Shown here piece by piece: positions 34,406 through 41,790 of a stretch of DNA of 64,000 nt. Numbering within the stretch: position 1 is the first letter of the stretch; each line of letters begins with the position of its first letter. The notes under the pieces were generated by a model, which worked only from the letters and a program-made list of their open reading frames with translations, was not told the origin of the DNA and made no database searches. Position numbers and translations under genes: made by a program. This DNA is from Luteibacter sp. 9135. Lineage in GTDB: Bacteria > Pseudomonadota > Gammaproteobacteria > Xanthomonadales > Rhodanobacteraceae. The stretch covers positions 1,397,001-1,461,000 of the forward strand of contig NZ_JQNB01000001.1 of the NCBI RefSeq assembly GCF_000745005.1, written 5' to 3'.

Positions 34406-34598
34406 GTAGGAGCGCGCGCACGTGCGCGAACCCTCAGCCTCTAACTGAGGCGAAAGAAGCCGACCGCCTAAACCAGCGAGCGTTTCCGTTCATCCGGTAT
34501 CGCGTACCAGGCTCACGGAAACGCTCGCTCGCCTGGTGCGATATGGCATCGGTTGCCCTTGCCGTGGAGAGGGTTCGCGCACGTGCGTGCGCTCCTAC
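34406..34598. repeat. REP doublet (REPIN) downstream of nrdB
   Basis: Outer arms GTAGGAGCGCGCGCACGTGC(GCGAACCCTC) at 34406-34435 and its inverted copy at 34569-34598 differ by one base. A second pair of 14-base perfect arms (GCGAGCGTTTCCGT, 34476-34489 and 34515-34528) lies within. The GTAGGAGCG head and the internal palindrome resemble Pseudomonas-type REPs, which are mobilised by RAYT transposases. No RAYT is in the window. The rest of this 324-base gap (34305-34628) carries a T7/G-rich run at 34388-34406 and no gene. Confidence 0.75.
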
Positions 34599-34628: not shown

Positions 34629-35657
34629 TCAGAACGACTGGTCGAAGGCGACCTCGCCCTGCACGCCCACTTGGTACGAGGAGACGCGGCGCTCGAAGAA
34701 GTTGGTCAGTTCCTGGACGTCCTGCAGGTCCATGAAGTCGAACGGGTTCTTCGCGCCGTATTTCTTCGGCATGTCGAGCTGGACCAGACGCTGGTCGGCG
34801 CAATACTCGAGGTACTGGCGCATGTCGGTGACGGACAGGCCGGCCACGCCGCCGGAGAGCACATCCGCCGCGAACTGGGTCTCGCAGGCGATCGCGTCTT
34901 CCAGCATGGCTTCCACTTCCTGGCGCATCTGGTCGTCGAAGAGGTCGGGCTCCTGCTCGCGCACGGTGCGCACCACCTCGAAGGCGAAGGCCATGTGGCC
35001 CGACTCGTCGCGGAACACCCAGTTGGTACCCGAGGCCAGGCCGTGCAGCAGGCCGCGCGAACGCAGGTAGTAGACGTAGGCGAAGGCGGCGAAGAAGAAC
35101 AGGCCCTCGATGCAGGCCGCGAAGCAGATCAGGTTGAGCAGGAACTGGCGGCGGTGCTCGCGCGTTTCCAGGCGGTTGAGGTTCTGGATCGAGTCGATCC
35201 ACTTGAAGCAGAACTCCCCCTTCTGGCGGATCGAGGGAATGCTCTCGATCGCGTCGAAGGCCTTGTTGCGCTCGCTCGGCTCCGGAATGTACGTGTCCAG
35301 CAGCGTGAGGTAGAACTGCACGTGCAGCGCTTCCTCGTACAGCTGGCGCGAGAGGTACATGCGCGCCTCGGGCGAGTTCACGTGCTGGTACAGGTTGAGC
35401 ACCAGGTTGTTCGACACGATGGTGTCGCCCGTGGCGAAGAAGGCCACCAGGCGATGGATCAGGTGCCGGTCGGCGTCTGACATCTTCGACTTCAGGTCAC
35501 TGGTATCGAGCGAGAAGTCCACTTCCTCCACCGTCCACGTGTTGCGGATGGCCGAGCGGTACATCTCATAGAACTGCGGGTACTTCATCGGCCGCAGGGT
35601 GAGCTCGAAACCGGGATCGAGGATATGGGTGTCGCGGGCGACGGGCAAAGCGGACAT
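34629..35657 (-). CDS. nrdB: Class I ribonucleoside-diphosphate reductase, beta subunit
   Basis: 342-residue radical-generating subunit. Dimetal ligands and radical Tyr can be placed: Asp in FFATGDTIVSNNL, EALHVQFY (Glu, His at +3 and Tyr four after the His, the Y122-equivalent spacing), Glu in ACIEGLFFFAAFAY and the Glu-His pair in RDESGHMAFAF. The C-terminal tail QGEVAFDQSF is the part that docks on the alpha subunit. ATG 35657 was chosen for GAGGTAG upstream and homology to the family's start; earlier in-frame starts fall in the REP. It follows nrdA with a 197-base gap that contains a REP doublet. Confidence 0.93.
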   Translation of the reverse strand: MSALPVARDTHILDPGFELTLRPMKYPQFYEMYRSAIRNTWTVEEVDFSLDTSDLKSKMSDADRHLIHRLVAFFATGDTIVSNNLVLNLYQHVNSPEARMYLSRQLYEEALHVQFYLTLLDTYIPEPSERNKAFDAIESIPSIRQKGEFCFKWIDSIQNLNRLETREHRRQFLLNLICFAACIEGLFFFAAFAYVYYLRSRGLLHGLASGTNWVFRDESGHMAFAFEVVRTVREQEPDLFDDQMRQEVEAMLEDAIACETQFAADVLSGGVAGLSVTDMRQYLEYCADQRLVQLDMPKKYGAKNPFDFMDLQDVQELTNFFERRVSSYQVGVQGEVAFDQSF

Positions 35658-35722: not shown

Positions 35723-35832
35723 GTAGGAGCGCACGCTGTGCGCGAAAAGCCAACGAAGCGGAGATGCAGCGCGATCCGCAGCGTTGCCGCGTCGTCGCGT
35801 TGTTGGTTTTCGCGCACAGCGTGCGCTCCTAC
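35723..35832. repeat. REP doublet (REPIN) between nrdA and nrdB
   Basis: GTAGGAGCGCACGCTGTGCG(CGAAAAGCCAAC) at 35723-35754 and its inverted copy at 35802-35832 differ by a single-base indel. On RNA the pair can form a long hairpin within the nrdA-nrdB message. The head GTAGGAGCGC and GTGCGCGAA tail are shared with the doublet downstream of nrdB, so they belong to one repeat family. Confidence 0.8.
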
Positions 35833-35854: not shown

Positions 35855-38374
35855 TTACTGGCAGGCTTCGCAGTATTCGGGGTTCTCGAGCGAGCAGAAC
35901 ACCGCGGCTTCCGCCTGCTCCTGCGCATCGGCGACGACCGGCGCGGCGGGCGTCGGCAGCGCGGCCGACGACGAGCTGACCGTGGTCTTGGTGATGCGGG
36001 TGGCGGGACGCGAGCGCAGGTAGTACGTCGTCTTGATGCCGGACTTCCAGGCGTACATGTACATGGACGACAGCTGGCCGATGTTCGGGTTTTCCATGAA
36101 CAGGTTCAGCGACTGGCTCTGGTCGATGTAGGCGCCGCGGGAGGCTGCCAGGTCGATCAGGGCCTTCTGCGGCAGTTCCCACGTGGTGCGATACACCTCG
36201 CGCAGTGCGGCCGGGATGGACGTGATGCCCTGGACGGAGCCTTCGGCGAGCTTGATCTGGTCGCGCACTTCGGCGGTCCACAGGCCCAGCGTCTTCAGCT
36301 CGTCCACCAGGTAACGGTTCACCACCAGGAAGTCGCCCGACAGCGTCTCGCGCTTGAACAGGTTGGACACCTGCGGCTCGATGCACTCGTAGCAGCCGGC
36401 GATCGAGGCGATGGTGGCGGTCGGCGCGATGGCGATGACCAGCGAGTTGCGCAGGCCCTTCGCCTTGATCTTCTCGCGCAGCTCGGCCCAGCGACCGTCG
36501 ACGTCGGTCGGCGTGGCGGCCGGCCAGTAGTCGAACTGCAGCTCGCCGTTGGCGGCGCGGGTTTCCTCGAAGCCGGGATGGGCGCCGTCACGCTCAGCGA
36601 TCTCGTTGGACATCGAGAGTGCGTGGAAGTAGATCTCTTCCTGGATGCGCGAGGACAGCTTCAGCGCTTCCGCGGAATCGAAGGGCAGGCGGAGCTTGAA
36701 GAAGACGTCCTGCAGGCCCATGACGCCAAGCCCGACCGGACGCCACTTCATGTTCGCCGTCTTCGCCGTGGCGATCGGGTAGAAGTTGAGGTCGATCACG
36801 CGGTTCAGCTGGCGAACGGCGGTGCGCACCGTGGTGGCGAGCTTGTCGTAATCGAACTGGCCGTCGACCACGTGGCGTGCCAGGTTCACCGAGCCGAGGT
36901 TGCACACGGCGGTCTCGCCTTCCGAGGTCACTTCCAGGATCTCGGTGCACAGGTTGGACAGGTGGATGACGTTTTCCGGACGCGCGGTCTGGTTGCTGGT
37001 GGCGTTGGAACGATCCTTGAATGTCATCCAGCCGTTACCGGTCTGCGCCAGCGAACGCAGCATGCGGGCGTACAACTCGCGCGCCTTGATCGACTTGACG
37101 GCCAGTCCCTGGGCCTCGGCCTTCTCGTAGGCGGTCTCGAAGGCGGCGCCCCACGTGTCGACGAAGTGCGGCACGATCTTCGGGTCGAACAGCGACCAGT
37201 CGCCGTCGGTCTCGACACGGCGCATGAACAGGTCCGGCACCCAGTTGGCCAGGTTGAGGTTGTGCGTGCGGCGCGCGTCGTCACCGGTGTTCTCACGCAG
37301 CTCGAGGAATTCCTCGATGTCCGCATGCCAGCTTTCCAGGTACACGCAGGCGGCGCCCTTGCGCTTGCCGCCCTGGTTCACCGCGGCCACCGACGCATCC
37401 AGGGTCTTCAGCCACGGCACCAGGCCGTTGGAATGACCGTTGGTGCCCTTGATCAGCGAGCCGCGCGAGCGGATACGCGAATAGGCCAGGCCGATACCGC
37501 CAGCGAACTTCGACAGCTGGGCCACGTCGCCGTACTTGGCGTAGATGGACTCCAGCGCGTCCTGAGGCGAATCCAGCAGGAAGCACGACGACAGCTGCTC
37601 GTGCGCGGTGCCGGCGTTGAACAGGGTGGGCGAGCTGGCCAGGTATTCCAGCGACGACAGCATGCGATACAGCTCGAGCGTCTCGGCCACGTCGTTGCCG
37701 CCGAGGGCGCAGGCGATGCGCATGAAGAAGTACTGCGGCGTCTCGATGACGAAGCGCCGGGTCGGGTGGCGCAGCAGGTAGCGGTCGTAGACCGTGCGCA
37801 GGCCGAAGTATTCGAAGCGGCGCGAGCCGGCGGTGTCGATGGCATCGTTGAGCTTGCGCGCGTTGACCAGCACGAAGTCACGCAGGCGCTCGTTGAGGAT
37901 GCCCAGCTCGAAGCCGGTGCTGATCGACTGCGAGAACGACTGGATGTCCTGGCCGGACACTTCCTTGTCGACGAAAGCGGCCAGCAGGCGCGCGGCCAGC
38001 TGGCCGTATTCCGGTTCCTCGGCGGTGAGCGCCGCGGAGGTGCGGATCGACAGCTGGTCCAGCTCCTGCGTGGTGGCGCCGTCGTACAGGCCGCCGATGG
38101 TCTTCAGCGCCACGCGCATCGGGTCGACCGCGAACAGGCCATCGGCGCTGCGGGTCACCGCGCGCACGATCTTGTTCACGTCGACGGCTTCCTGGCCGCC
38201 GTTGCGCTTGGTGACGCGCATCTGGCCGGGGTTGTGCGGCGGGGTCAGCGCGAACGCCGGCGGCGGCTCGTTGCGGTAACCGGCAGCGGGTGCCTTGTCC
38301 GCCGGGGCGGGGGAGGTGACGGCCGTATCGGCTGCTTCGGTGCGCTCGCGCGCGGCGGATTCCATCGTGGTCAT
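35855..38374 (-). CDS. nrdA: Class I ribonucleoside-diphosphate reductase, alpha subunit
   Basis: Catalytic subunit that reduces ribonucleoside diphosphates, 839 residues (E. coli NrdA is about 760; the extra is an Ala/Pro-rich N-terminus). The ATP-cone follows at about residues 50-145 (MRVTKRNGGQEAVDVNKIVR). Active-site motifs: HEQLSSCFLLD, NLCTEILEVTSEGETAVCNL (radical Cys and Glu, then the redox Cys), and the Tyr-Tyr transfer region KSGIKTTYYLRSR. The C-terminal CSLENPEYCEACQ holds the thioredoxin-reactive Cys pair. The start ATG lacks a strong Shine-Dalgarno. Transcript begins about 370 bases upstream behind a B12 riboswitch. Confidence 0.94.
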   Translation of the reverse strand: MTTMESAARERTEAADTAVTSPAPADKAPAAGYRNEPPPAFALTPPHNPGQMRVTKRNGGQEAVDVNKIVRAVTRSADGLFAVDPMRVALKTIGGLYDGATTQELDQLSIRTSAALTAEEPEYGQLAARLLAAFVDKEVSGQDIQSFSQSISTGFELGILNERLRDFVLVNARKLNDAIDTAGSRRFEYFGLRTVYDRYLLRHPTRRFVIETPQYFFMRIACALGGNDVAETLELYRMLSSLEYLASSPTLFNAGTAHEQLSSCFLLDSPQDALESIYAKYGDVAQLSKFAGGIGLAYSRIRSRGSLIKGTNGHSNGLVPWLKTLDASVAAVNQGGKRKGAACVYLESWHADIEEFLELRENTGDDARRTHNLNLANWVPDLFMRRVETDGDWSLFDPKIVPHFVDTWGAAFETAYEKAEAQGLAVKSIKARELYARMLRSLAQTGNGWMTFKDRSNATSNQTARPENVIHLSNLCTEILEVTSEGETAVCNLGSVNLARHVVDGQFDYDKLATTVRTAVRQLNRVIDLNFYPIATAKTANMKWRPVGLGVMGLQDVFFKLRLPFDSAEALKLSSRIQEEIYFHALSMSNEIAERDGAHPGFEETRAANGELQFDYWPAATPTDVDGRWAELREKIKAKGLRNSLVIAIAPTATIASIAGCYECIEPQVSNLFKRETLSGDFLVVNRYLVDELKTLGLWTAEVRDQIKLAEGSVQGITSIPAALREVYRTTWELPQKALIDLAASRGAYIDQSQSLNLFMENPNIGQLSSMYMYAWKSGIKTTYYLRSRPATRITKTTVSSSSAALPTPAAPVVADAQEQAEAAVFCSLENPEYCEACQ

Positions 38375-38518
38375 GTCAGGCGTGCCCCAGGGCTCGGTTC
38401 AAACTCCCGTTCCCTCGGACGGGGCTCGAAGCGGTGGGCCGGCGGAAAAAGATCGCGTCGGAGCACGCCATCGGGGGCTCCGGACCGCGACGTGCCTCCC
38501 CGCGGAAGCCGTCACCAC

Positions 38519-38537
38519 AAAAACCGCCGCCTGGCGG
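38519..38537 (-). terminator. Riboswitch-controlled intrinsic terminator ahead of nrdA
   Basis: On the minus strand CCGCC, loop AGGC, GGCGG and five T's directly follow the cobalamin riboswitch, starting ten bases after its closing helix. It fits an expression platform that ends transcription before nrdA when B12 is bound. Confidence 0.75.
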
Positions 38538-38547
38538 GGCGACAGCT

Positions 38548-38736
38548 GTTGGCAGGTCTTCGGACTTCGTGGACGGGGACGCCTTTCGGGTCCGGCCTAG
38601 CCGTCGCTTCCCAATCCCACGGGGGGACCAGTGCGTGTGACGGGTTCGTTTCCACTTACCGCTGCGGGGCAGTTCCGGATTTGCACCGGATTCCCTATTA
38701 AGTCCGACGGGCAGTCGCGCCTCTTCGGACACCAAC
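38548..38736 (-). promoter_or_regulatory. Cobalamin (AdoCbl) riboswitch upstream of nrdAB
   Basis: Read on the minus strand. Core elements in order: AATAGGGAA (38691-38699), CCGGTG...AATCCGG...CTGCCCCGC (38664-38689), GCGGTAAGT, CACTGG and GTGGGATTGGGAAG in the middle, and the B12 box AAGTCCGAAGACCTGCC (38551-38567). Closing helix GTTGG/CCAAC (38732-38736 with 38548-38552). All conserved blocks are present in the right order and spacing. With the terminator following, B12 should switch nrdAB off. Confidence 0.93.
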
Positions 38737-38741
38737 GGGAC

Positions 38742-38787
38742 ACACCATATAGCTGGTCCCCGGTACCGTCAACACAAGATATAGGGT
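38742..38787 (-). promoter_or_regulatory. Paired NrdR-like boxes over the nrdA promoter
   Basis: ACCCTATATCTTGTGT (minus strand, 38772-38787) and ACCAGCTATATGGTGT (38742-38757) resemble the NrdR consensus ACACTATATMTTGTGT; the first is the better match. Centres are 30 bases apart, close to the three helical turns between tandem NrdR boxes. One abuts the -35 and the other covers the -10. Confidence 0.6.
38744..38772 (-). promoter_or_regulatory. Promoter of nrdAB
   Basis: TTGACG (38767-38772), a 17-base spacer and TATGGT (38744-38749) on the minus strand, so that transcription would begin just before the first paired element of the riboswitch. Confidence 0.6.
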
Positions 38788-38931
38788 AAATGCGCTATGT
38801 GCTTGATCCGCCGGGAGTCATTTTTTTACAACCCCCCGTGGACCGATTTGCGCATCGCGACATGACCGTTTCGTGAAGATGGCCTACACAAATTGCAGGG
38901 CTTCGAACCTTTAACATCTGCGATCCGCCCC

Positions 38932-41790
38932 ATGACCGCTCGCTCGATGCCATCTACGTTCGCGTTGCAGGAACACGCCCTGGTCACCCATGCGTTCGAC
39001 GCACTGCCGTTCGGCTTCACGGCCGTGTCGGCGACAGGGGAGCTCCTTTACGCCAATGCCTGGATGACCGCACGGCTTCGTGACGGGGCGGGGCAGGGCT
39101 TCCTGACCTGGTGGACCGAAGACAGCCGCGCGCGATTGAGCACCCTGCTCCTGACCGGCGGGATCGAGGGCGTCCGTGAGCTTGCGCTCACGGCGGTCGA
39201 CGGCACCGCCTGGCGGGTCTCGGTCGAGCTGTGGCGCGCCCCGGTGGCTGGCGAGGCGGTCTTCATGGTCGCGGTATCCCCCCCCGTTGGCGATGCCGCC
39301 GCCACGGCCGGCGACACGGAAGATCGGCGCCTGGCCCTCATCGAGGTGGGCAACCTGCTCCGTGACCTCGAGGATCCGGCCCACATCGCCTACTGCGTCG
39401 CCGAGGTGCTGGGCCGCACGCTCCGGATCAGCCGGGCCGGTTACGGCACCGTGGACACCGTGGCGGAGACCATCAGCGTCGAACGCGACTGGAACGCCCC
39501 CGGCATCCTGACGCTGGCCGGCGTGCTGAACTTCCGCGATTACGGATCGTACATCGACGATATCAAAGCCGGTCGCACCGCCGTCGTCACCGATGCCTAC
39601 CAGGATCCGCGCACCCAACGCACCGCCGATGCGCTGGCGGCGATCAGCGCCGTCTCCTTCATCAATATGCCGGTGACCGAGAGGGGCGGCGTCGTGGCGC
39701 TGCTCTACCTCAACCACGAGGGGCCCCGCGAGTGGCCGGAGGAGGAGATCGCCTTCGTCCGTGAGGTGGCCAATCGTACGCGCGTCGCCGTGGAGCGGCG
39801 CCGCGCCGAAGCCGAGCTGCAGCAACTCGCCCAGAGCCTGGAGCGACAGGTGGCGGAGCGCACCTTCGAGCGCGACCGTATCTGGCGCTTCTCCAGCGAC
39901 ATCCTGCTCGTGGCCGATGCGGATACGCGCCTGCTCTCGGTCAATCCGGCGTGGACCGCGATCCTGGGCTGGAGCGAGCGCGAGACCCTGGGACGGTCCT
40001 ACCTGGATTTCGTGCACCCCGACGACACCGATCGTACCGGTGAGGAAACCGGGCAGCTGGCCGACGGGGTGGCCACGCTGCGCTTCGAGAATCGTTACCG
40101 CACGGCCGATGGGGGCTTCCGTCAGCTGTCCTGGCGGGCCGTGCCCAGCGAAGGCATGATCTTTGCCGTGGCCCGCGATGTCACGATCGAACGCGCGCGC
40201 GACGCGGAACTGGACCTGGCCCAGGAGCAACTGCGCCAGGCGCAGAAGATGGATGCTATCGGCAACCTCACCGGTGGCGTGGCGCACGACTTCAACAACC
40301 TGCTGCAGGTGATCAGCGGCAACCTGCAACTGCTGGGCATCGATGTCTCGGGTAACGAACGCGCCGAGCGTCGCGTGGCCAACGCCATGGCGGGCGTCAC
40401 TCGCGGGTCCAAGCTAGCCGCCCAACTGCTGGCCTTCGGCCGGCGCCAGCCGCTGGCGCCCAAGGTCGTCAACGTCGGCCGCTTCGTCCGTGACATGGAC
40501 GAGCTGCTCCGCCGCGCGCTGGGTGAGGCGATCGAGGTGGAGACCGTGATCGCCGGTGGTCTGTGGAATACGCTCGTCGATCCGTCCAACGTGGAGAACG
40601 CCCTGCTCAACCTGGCGATCAACGCACGTGACGCGATGAGCGGCCAGGGCAGGCTCACCGTGGAGGCAGGCAACGCCTTGCTGGACGAGAACTATGCGAA
40701 AACCCACGGTGACCTCCGTCCCGGCCAGTACGTGATGCTTGCGGTGACCGACACCGGATGCGGTATTCCGGCGGATATCCTGGACAAGGTGTTCGACCCG
40801 TTCTTCACGACCAAGCCCGAGGGCCGCGGCACGGGTCTGGGCCTGTCGATGGTCTACGGATTCGTCAAGCAATCCGGTGGTCACATCAAGGTGTACAGCG
40901 AGCCGGGTGAAGGTACGACGGTAAAGATCTACCTGCCCCGGTCCATGCAGAGCGAGGATCGTATCGTGGTCGTCGAAGAGGAAGCCATTCGCGGTGGTGA
41001 CGAAACCATTCTCGTCGCCGAGGACGATGAGGCCGTGCGGGAAACCGTGGTCGGCATGCTCGCCGAACTCGGTTACCGCGTCCTGAAGGCACGCGATGCC
41101 GAGAGCGCGCTGTCGATCGTGGAAAGCGGTATCGCCATCGATCTGTTGTTTACCGACGTGGTGATGCCCGGCCCCCTGCGCAGCCCCGAGCTCGCGCGCA
41201 AGGCGGTCGAGCGCCAGCCCGGCCTGGCCGTGTTGTTCACCTCGGGCTATACCGAGAACGCCATCGTGCATGGCGGTCGCCTGGACGAGGGCGTCGAATT
41301 GCTCAGCAAGCCGTACACGCGCGAGCAGTTGGCACGTCGGGTCCGCCAGGTGCTGGGCGCCCGCATGCCCCGGACGATCGCCGAGGTGGCGACGCCTCCG
41401 CAGGCTCAGTCGCCGGCCCCGGCCCCGGCCGTTGCCGTGCCGCTACGCGTACTGGTACTTGAAGACGACGCCTTGATCCGTATGTCGATCACCGAGATGC
41501 TGGAGAGCCGCGGACACGTGGCGTTCGAGGCCGGTGACGGTAACGAAGCGCTTCGCGTCCACGGTGCCGAGGCCATCGACGTGCTGCTGGCCGACGTGGG
41601 ATTGCCGGGCATGAGCGGCGTGGATGTGGCCGAGCGGCTGCGCGAGGCCCAGCCGGAATTGCCGGTGATCTACGCCACAGGCGACCACACCGCCAATGGC
41701 GTGGTCCGCGACGATCGCACGGCGATCATCGTCAAGCCGTACGGAGTGGCCGACCTGATGGAAGCACTGGGGCGCATCGCGCGTCGTTGA
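38932..41790 (+). CDS. Hybrid histidine kinase with PAS, GAF and two receiver domains
   Basis: Cytosolic sensor kinase of 952 residues; no membrane helix. Order: PAS-like (about 15-115), GAF (about 130-290), coiled coil (about 295-325), second PAS (about 330-420), dimerisation helix with phospho-His452 in [14 protein letters not shown], ATPase with N box [10 protein letters not shown] and G boxes DTGCGIP and [10 protein letters not shown], first receiver (Asp742 in LFTDVVMPG) and second receiver (Asp888 in [12 protein letters not shown]) after a Pro/Ala linker. No output domain, so the signal passes on by phosphorelay. Starts are ambiguous (TTG 38893, ATG 38932, ATG 38947). Stimulus unknown; divergent from nrdAB, which need not mean a link. 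Confidence 0.88.

Follow-up and report, generated by a model that had tools for sequence, protein, structure and literature searches.

Genes and regulatory features of the nrdAB locus

The window analysed here, a 64,000-nucleotide stretch (G000:C1:1397001-1461000) of a source genome represented by one 4.49-Mb contig (C1), carries on its minus strand a cobalamin riboswitch followed directly by nrdA and nrdB, encoding a class I ribonucleotide reductase (Table 1). A cmscan of the whole 64-kb window recovered the aptamer as RF00174 over the entire model, against a gathering score of 31.5 bits. Within 38340-38960, no Rfam family outside this clan matched at E <= 5, and two weaker matches from the same clan were dropped by the scan tool. 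The initial annotation of this DNA had placed a B12 riboswitch leading into nrdA on the minus strand; the covariance search and the profile matches of the two downstream genes bear this out, with coordinates correct to within about 15 bases, confirming that the B12-sensing RNA in front of nrdAB is real. By its sequence, the aptamer would be expected to bind cobalamin and to affect expression of the genes behind it.

Table 1. Positions of the features in the window (numbered from its first nucleotide)
Feature	Position	Strand	Basis
nrdB, small subunit	34629..35657	minus	PF00268, 271.9 bits
nrdA, class I ribonucleotide reductase large subunit, 839 aa	35855..38374	minus	TIGR02506, 726.6 bits (cut-off 341.05); PF02867, PF00317, ATP-cone
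Fourth leader hairpin, CCCCGT ... ACGGG; nrdA starts about 30 nt further on	38406..38424	minus	by eye in leaders
Third leader hairpin, ending in the second U5	38446..38491	minus	fold; U5 in sequence
Putative P13; its loop GCGGGG (L13, 38498-38503) is complementary to L5	38489..38513	minus	fold z -3.6
Linker hairpin + UUUUU (initially annotated as terminator)	38518..38548	minus	-17.5 kcal/mol, z -2.1
Cobalamin riboswitch aptamer (RF00174)	38534..38751	minus	113.1 bits, E 1.5e-27, model 1-189
C-rich aptamer loop L5 (CCCCGC)	38664..38669	minus	pattern search
NrdR-box-like site 2 (CAGCTATATGGTGTGT), covers -10-like TATGGT (38744-38749)	38740..38755	minus	consensus + promoter scan
NrdR-box-like site 1 (ACCCTATATCTTGTGT), overlaps -35-like TTGACG (38767-38772)	38772..38787	minus	consensus + promoter scan

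Among named records, the nearest nrdA sequences are those of Luteibacter, with 94-95% identity in the best segment in a search from which near-identical records were possibly omitted. The start of nrdB was taken as the ATG at 35657, while the scanned open frame extends back to a TTG at 35753. A tyrosine of NrdB aligns with Tyr138 of human p53R2, which we take to be the radical tyrosine of that protein, and this fits a tyrosyl-radical, oxygen-dependent class I enzyme. An inverted repeat with GTAGGAGCGCAC arms that looks like a REP element occupies 35723-35832 between nrdA and nrdB, and a further copy follows nrdB at 34587-34598; the window holds four matches to this repeat at one mismatch or fewer, compared with 0.5 expected.

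Upstream of the aptamer, two NrdR-box-like sites lie in tandem, 32 bp apart, over a sigma-70-like promoter, their positions across leaders being mostly -37 and -5 relative to the aptamer start. The sites were scored against a general NrdR consensus. Of 88 leaders, a set in which at least four species are present twice, 80 have a box pair that no more than 2 of 200 single-base shuffles of the same region could equal. Since the genome also encodes NrdR (TIGR00244, 199.9 bits) and the boxes are tandem promoter sites, nrdAB has the make-up of an NrdR regulon member, with binding of NrdR predicted at both sites.

A conserved hairpin downstream of the aptamer presents a loop complementary to L5

Cobalamin riboswitches work via pairing of a C-rich L5 with an L13 loop outside the aptamer, according to the accessible text of PMC2258182 and PMC9600662. 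In the leader studied here, the aptamer is followed by a variable linker hairpin, a strongly conserved hairpin and two more hairpins, and it is on account of this known pairing that the strongly conserved one was named P13. The window has the C-rich L5 and the complementary loop outside the aptamer in common with the system outlined in those two papers, as far as their available parts describe it, and differs from it in having a variable hairpin between P1 and P13 and a P13 some 115 nt upstream of the start codon.

L5 is close to invariant, with CCCCGCA found by pattern search in 79/80 leaders. A shape-directed search found a P13-shaped hairpin in 75 of 84 leaders, with a four-base loop in 68 of these and GCGG as its sequence in 55 of the 68. 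Because that search demanded pairing at the inner four positions, only the outer positions and changes of pair type support the stem. RNAalifold on 37 leaders gave P13 12 pairs, three of them changed on both sides, with a small covariation term (-0.48 of -18.13 kcal/mol). The loops CCCCGC and GCGGGG of the window could form six pairs by sequence complementarity. Across 80 leaders, obtained by keeping one copy of each of four doubled species and removing four leaders without a recognisable P1 end, at least four Watson-Crick pairs between L5 and L13 are possible in 73 and at least six in 55; the figure of 73 is a lower bound, given that in one leader (L129) the script took another hairpin than the evident one. 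The invariance of L5 leaves the kissing loop without covariation of its own. Taken together, the presence of a candidate kissing partner for L5 outside the aptamer suggests that the switch is better read as a canonical L5-L13 kissing loop than as a terminator in the linker.

Several other arrangements were considered and set aside. An alternative state in which the aptamer core (GGAAGC) pairs with the 5' arm of P13 (GCUUCC) was rejected by eye because Lysobacteraceae alter the P13 arm yet retain the pairing within P13 itself. The linker hairpin was dismissed as the kissing hairpin since its loop mismatches L5 in Luteibacter (by eye). A leader peptide coupled to nrdA was likewise abandoned, as the small open frames of the window appear, by eye, not to be common to its congeners. 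A single minimum-free-energy fold (z -1.7) yielded nothing usable on platform switching. Two nrdA leaders from other gammaproteobacterial families (L185 and L173) have in common another conserved sequence after P1, CCCTCGCCTTCGCG.AACAGGCGTCGGGG, which is possibly a different expression platform.

Intrinsic termination is not conserved among the leaders

The initial annotation had taken the hairpin and U-run just after the aptamer as a terminator through which the switch would act. The hairpin followed by TTTTT does exist there, and to that extent the claim stands; as a conserved switching device it does not. A terminator scan of the 651-base region returned two mutually overlapping sites against 0.9 +/- 0.9 in shuffles, placing the motif weakly above chance. 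Across the 84 parsed leaders (L135, L136, L148 and L064 could not be parsed), a T run of at least four between P1 and P13 occurred in one, the window's own; it was found in 0/20 other parsed leaders of the genus (L120-L141) and 0/83 overall. Linker hairpins that lack the U-run are common among the leaders. The conserved combination of GC hairpin and U-run after the aptamer that would mark an intrinsic-terminator riboswitch was thus not found.

A regulated intrinsic terminator at the linker, favoured by B12, would be supported by the ten pairs, six-nucleotide loop and immediately 3' T run of the hairpin, as well as by its stability (-17.5 kcal/mol) and its presence in the minimum-free-energy fold of the leader. 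It is opposed by the lack of the T run in all other parsed leaders, including the 20 congeners, and by its place after the aptamer but ahead of P13, the hairpin with the loop complementary to L5, since termination at 38518 would come before L13 has been synthesised. We therefore regard such a regulated terminator as unlikely, while a local terminator in the window's species is possible.

The third hairpin offers a second candidate, since it is downstream of P13 and so able to respond to L5-L13 pairing, its UCGCG...CGCGA stem ends in UCUUUUU, and one congener (L127) has a T run of six. However, a T run of at least five within 100 nt after the P13 loop was found in only 4/84 leaders, the fold z-score of this hairpin is only -0.8, and its base overlaps that of P13 by a few nucleotides, making its role as a terminator doubtful. 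Judged across the leader sequences, intrinsic termination does not appear to be the conserved mechanism, and because the U-run is not conserved, a translational or Rho-dependent block is more likely to follow the proposed L5-L13 kissing loop.

The genome carries a class II reductase and further cobalamin riboswitches

If B12 shuts off nrdAB, another reductase should be available, and a class II nrdJ elsewhere in the genome had been predicted on this ground by the initial annotation. The genome search located it at G000:C1:1720197-1721837 (TIGR02504, 578.4 bits; cut-off 399.95), and among solved structures its sequence is closest to that of 1xje, a B12-dependent reductase. The PF02867 genes found in the genome are two, nrdA and nrdJ, and a search for NrdD found none. 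Directly 3' of nrdJ is a lysine/alanine-rich, histone H1-like gene (L006:3361-4617) whose family matches are below the cut-offs. In-frame inserts of about 1.1 kb were observed in the NrdJ of ten genomes (G015, G032, G036, G059, G070, G076, G077, G083, G090 and G101) and in the NrdA of G029. They are probably inteins, which have been described in these reductase genes (available text of PMC4465626).

Three other cobalamin riboswitches of the genome precede metE (riboswitch at G000:C1:457335-457556, L037), a gene for a BtuB-like receptor (TIGR01779, 561.8 bits, below the cut-off of 599.7) and an mmsA operon (riboswitch at G000:C1:2568949-2569153, within L036, G000:C1:2565000-2574000). The metE leader also has a hairpin with CCGCGGGG, resembling the P13 of nrdA. 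CobB/CbiA, a marker of corrin-ring (B12) synthesis, was not found in the genome, and together with the targets of the other riboswitches this gives the organism the look of a B12 importer; with one synthesis marker as the basis, it probably relies on imported B12.

The mmsA operon was identified by its namesake (TIGR01722, 743.1 bits; cut-off 448.5) and also holds an acyl-CoA dehydrogenase-like gene, an enoyl-CoA hydratase and a 3-hydroxyisobutyryl-CoA hydrolase of valine breakdown. Proteins with a B12-binding domain found in the genome are MetH, IcmF and two radical-SAM proteins, the IcmF match (750.4 bits) aligning 639 residues with the first 592 of 1076 profile positions. The role of IcmF is to interconvert isobutyryl- and butyryl-CoA, and from this the mmsA route can be seen as a B12-free alternative for isobutyryl-CoA, so that mmsA, an unusual target, becomes explicable as the B12-independent alternative to IcmF. 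An earlier report of a B12 riboswitch on an mmsA operon was not found in the literature searched, which includes the available portions of PMC9600662 and PMC2667541.

Such leaders recur in the genus and family and were less expected than the nrdAB switch: among the matches listed, at least 77 further riboswitches stand, all of them, before BtuB-like (45), MetE-like (24) or MmsA-like (8) genes, each target being read as the best match in the 2 kb downstream. The BtuB-like targets split into a near and a distant type, and mmsA lies behind a riboswitch in at least nine genomes of two genera, the window's included. We lean slightly toward reading the B12 riboswitches of the family as one closed regulon, comprising btuB uptake and every B12-independent detour of the known B12 enzymes, in which nrdAB is paired with NrdJ, metE with MetH and the mmsA operon with IcmF.

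These companion targets also bear on the direction of control. That B12 turns nrdAB on would be compatible with the sequence alone; it is opposed by the other riboswitch targets of the genome, among them the B12-independent metE and the gene of a BtuB-like receptor. Targets of these two kinds are known to be repressed through their riboswitches. With PMC3848588 and PMC4342826 arguing, in their accessible passages, for repression of nrdAB likewise, an activating switch is scarcely credible, and repression of nrdAB by B12 is a well-founded expectation.

The riboswitch is widespread in the order and rarely occurs without nrdJ

The initial annotation regarded this arrangement as not the textbook one for gammaproteobacteria; by its distribution, it is no exception in the window's group. 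A first set of 61 genomes, including the window's own, was searched with RF00174 and PF02867, and 45 had a class I-like nrdA (>550 bits). One of them (G042) was left out because a contig end was too near, and 44 testable genomes remained; G043, with another class I type, and the fragmentary genes of G051, G052 and G054 were excluded from this number. Of the 44 (own included), 40 have the riboswitch upstream of their class I nrdA, and each of these 40 genomes also gave a class II-like match, judged by score and span. The other four comprise two without a class II-like match (G044 and G057) and two with one (G017 and G028). The gene of the other type in G043, a shorter class I reductase-like gene of 625 aa, lies directly behind a cobalamin riboswitch (L161, G043:C8:58000-61000), and that genome also has a class II-like match.

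A second set comprised 80 named nrdA loci, 51 of which were taken as Lysobacterales with enough upstream DNA, some being titled only Pseudomonadota or Proteobacteria; L057 was dropped for having too little DNA and L106 was uncounted. The riboswitch precedes nrdA in 41 of the 51, which divide into 39 with both riboswitch and NrdJ, nine with neither, two with the riboswitch only (L058 and L074, both MAGs) and one with NrdJ only. L061 was scored as having NrdJ from a fragment of 386.1 bits, under the cut-off. Two loci counted as lacking NrdJ, L067 and L078, each contain a more remotely reductase-like open frame (844-886 aa) with two match pieces below the NrdJ cut-off (G088:C1:481906-483435 and G099:C34:75265-76812, respectively), and the other Stenotrophomonas genomes counted as NrdJ-lacking were searched only at E <= 1e-60. 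Riboswitches of the named loci were called by nhmmer; Rfam confirmed all eight Lysobacterales positives tested, including seven of the eight weakest, and five positives from outside the order, and detected no riboswitch in 10 Lysobacterales negatives or in 18 negatives outside the order.

Outside Lysobacterales, the 23 named loci include five with the riboswitch (Myxococcota, Acidobacteriota), 17 with nrdJ and no riboswitch, and one with neither. Of 143 genomes drawn from across the class, 77 gave an nrdA match, 75 of them outside the order. From these 75, 28 nrdA loci of other gammaproteobacterial families were obtained and examined, and a same-strand riboswitch lies upstream in four (L173, L185, L194 and L200, the last with a match of only 37.2 bits).

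An uncorrected Fisher test of the association between riboswitch and nrdJ gave p 1.7e-7. On the nrdA tree, the riboswitch changes twice and nrdJ five times, and the four independent pairs include one changing the same way and three without difference, so that co-loss is not significant after phylogeny correction and the Fisher value is not our main argument. The association rests largely on one loss centred on Stenotrophomonas. Having nrdJ clearly does not require the riboswitch: of the 22 loci outside Lysobacterales that bear nrdJ and have sufficient upstream DNA, 17 lack it. A narrower rule does hold: a riboswitch without nrdJ is nearly absent (0/40 riboswitch-bearing genomes of the first set and 2/41 named loci). 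Lethality of that state in B12 would lead one to expect such rarity.

Decayed switches suggest an order of loss

Remnants of the switch were recognised by eye in two Stenotrophomonas leaders of NrdJ-lacking loci (L078 and L079), which retain the second NrdR-like box, the first aptamer bases, a damaged 3' side of P1 and P13, and have lost the aptamer core. L080, from the same supported tree group, has lost the aptamer and kept nrdJ with an in-frame insert. The region upstream of nrdA in L072 is also decayed, an NrdR-like box and a P13-like hairpin being kept and parts of the aptamer lost. Within the window's own genus, the nrdA leader of G017 (L136) gave no Rfam riboswitch match and has lost, by eye, the B12 box and the 3' strand of P1, and a class II gene is present in this genome.

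That such relics exist, in G017 and in several Stenotrophomonas leaders that lack the B12 box or the P1 3' side, gives some ground for suspecting that the riboswitch of the window is a relic as well, with nrdAB independent of B12 in practice. However, its aptamer matches the full model and both L5 and L13 are intact, making this very unlikely.

We reasoned that a riboswitch without nrdJ should be lethal in B12, from which it follows that the switch must break before nrdJ is lost. The relics look like steps in one such order, switch first and nrdJ later, and if this order is true, L080, G017 and G028, where a class II gene is present and the riboswitch absent or broken, show the allowed intermediate.

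Discussion

From the aptamer, its target genes, nrdJ, the box-like sites, and P13 with its complementarity to L5, all shown by computation, and from the conservation observed, we infer the following scheme. Nucleotide-loaded NrdR probably represses initiation at the tandem boxes over the promoter, and the transcript would start with the aptamer. Imported B12, after conversion to AdoCbl, would be bound by the aptamer, allowing L5 (CCCCGC) to kiss L13 (GCGGGG) of P13; the kiss may lock the leader in a form that blocks nrdAB expression by a translational or Rho-type step. DNA precursor synthesis would then shift to the AdoCbl-dependent class II NrdJ, and nrdAB would be made when B12 is lacking. 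As a whole, this explanation, an AdoCbl off-switch on nrdAB with NrdJ taking over, appears to us highly probable.

NrdR is reportedly also involved in the control of nrdABS in Streptomyces coelicolor, which belongs to a phylum distant from the window's organism. The initial annotation had pointed to B12 control of an oxygen-dependent reductase in Streptomyces, rightly so: a B12 riboswitch upstream of class Ia nrdA and a class II nrdJ in the genome are on record there (Borovok 2006, as cited in the available text of PMC3293853), and the window's genome shows the same arrangement, with class I nrdAB directly downstream of the riboswitch and class II nrdJ elsewhere. In Propionibacterium acnes, RNA-seq indicates that much nrdAB transcription stops before the first gene behind the riboswitch; the available parts of the report describe, as in the window, an NrdR box at the promoter and nrdJ as the supposed replacement, and, in contrast to it, a riboswitch also on nrdDG and a single nrd-box on nrdAB, the window's genome being without detected nrdD (PMC3848588). 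Bacillus methanolicus, a Firmicute, likewise carries in its genome a riboswitch on each of the B12-independent targets nrdAB and metE, with an mmsA riboswitch unmentioned in the accessible text (PMC4342826). Isozymes of B12-dependent enzymes have been treated as a category of cobalamin regulons (Sun et al. 2013, PMC3766115, available text), and in Pseudomonas aeruginosa the nrd genes respond independently of a B12 riboswitch, as stated in the portion of PMC5962746 available.

A B12 riboswitch on nrdAB is thus already known from other bacteria, and it is widespread in the window's group. The accessible portions of the literature searched held no mention of an nrdAB riboswitch in Xanthomonadales; Rodionov 2003, Vitreschak 2003, Nahvi 2004 and Borovok 2006 may hold one.

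By this distribution, DNA-precursor synthesis would be under B12 control in much of a large gammaproteobacterial order. With the mmsA operon, the B12 rule reaches branched-chain amino acid breakdown as well, and the decayed Stenotrophomonas switches form a natural record of the dismantling of a riboswitch-nrdJ pair. Given that the organism seems, by one marker, unable to make B12, the B12 of its neighbours would choose which essential reductase is run, and the class II enzyme is predicted to be conditionally essential when B12 is present.
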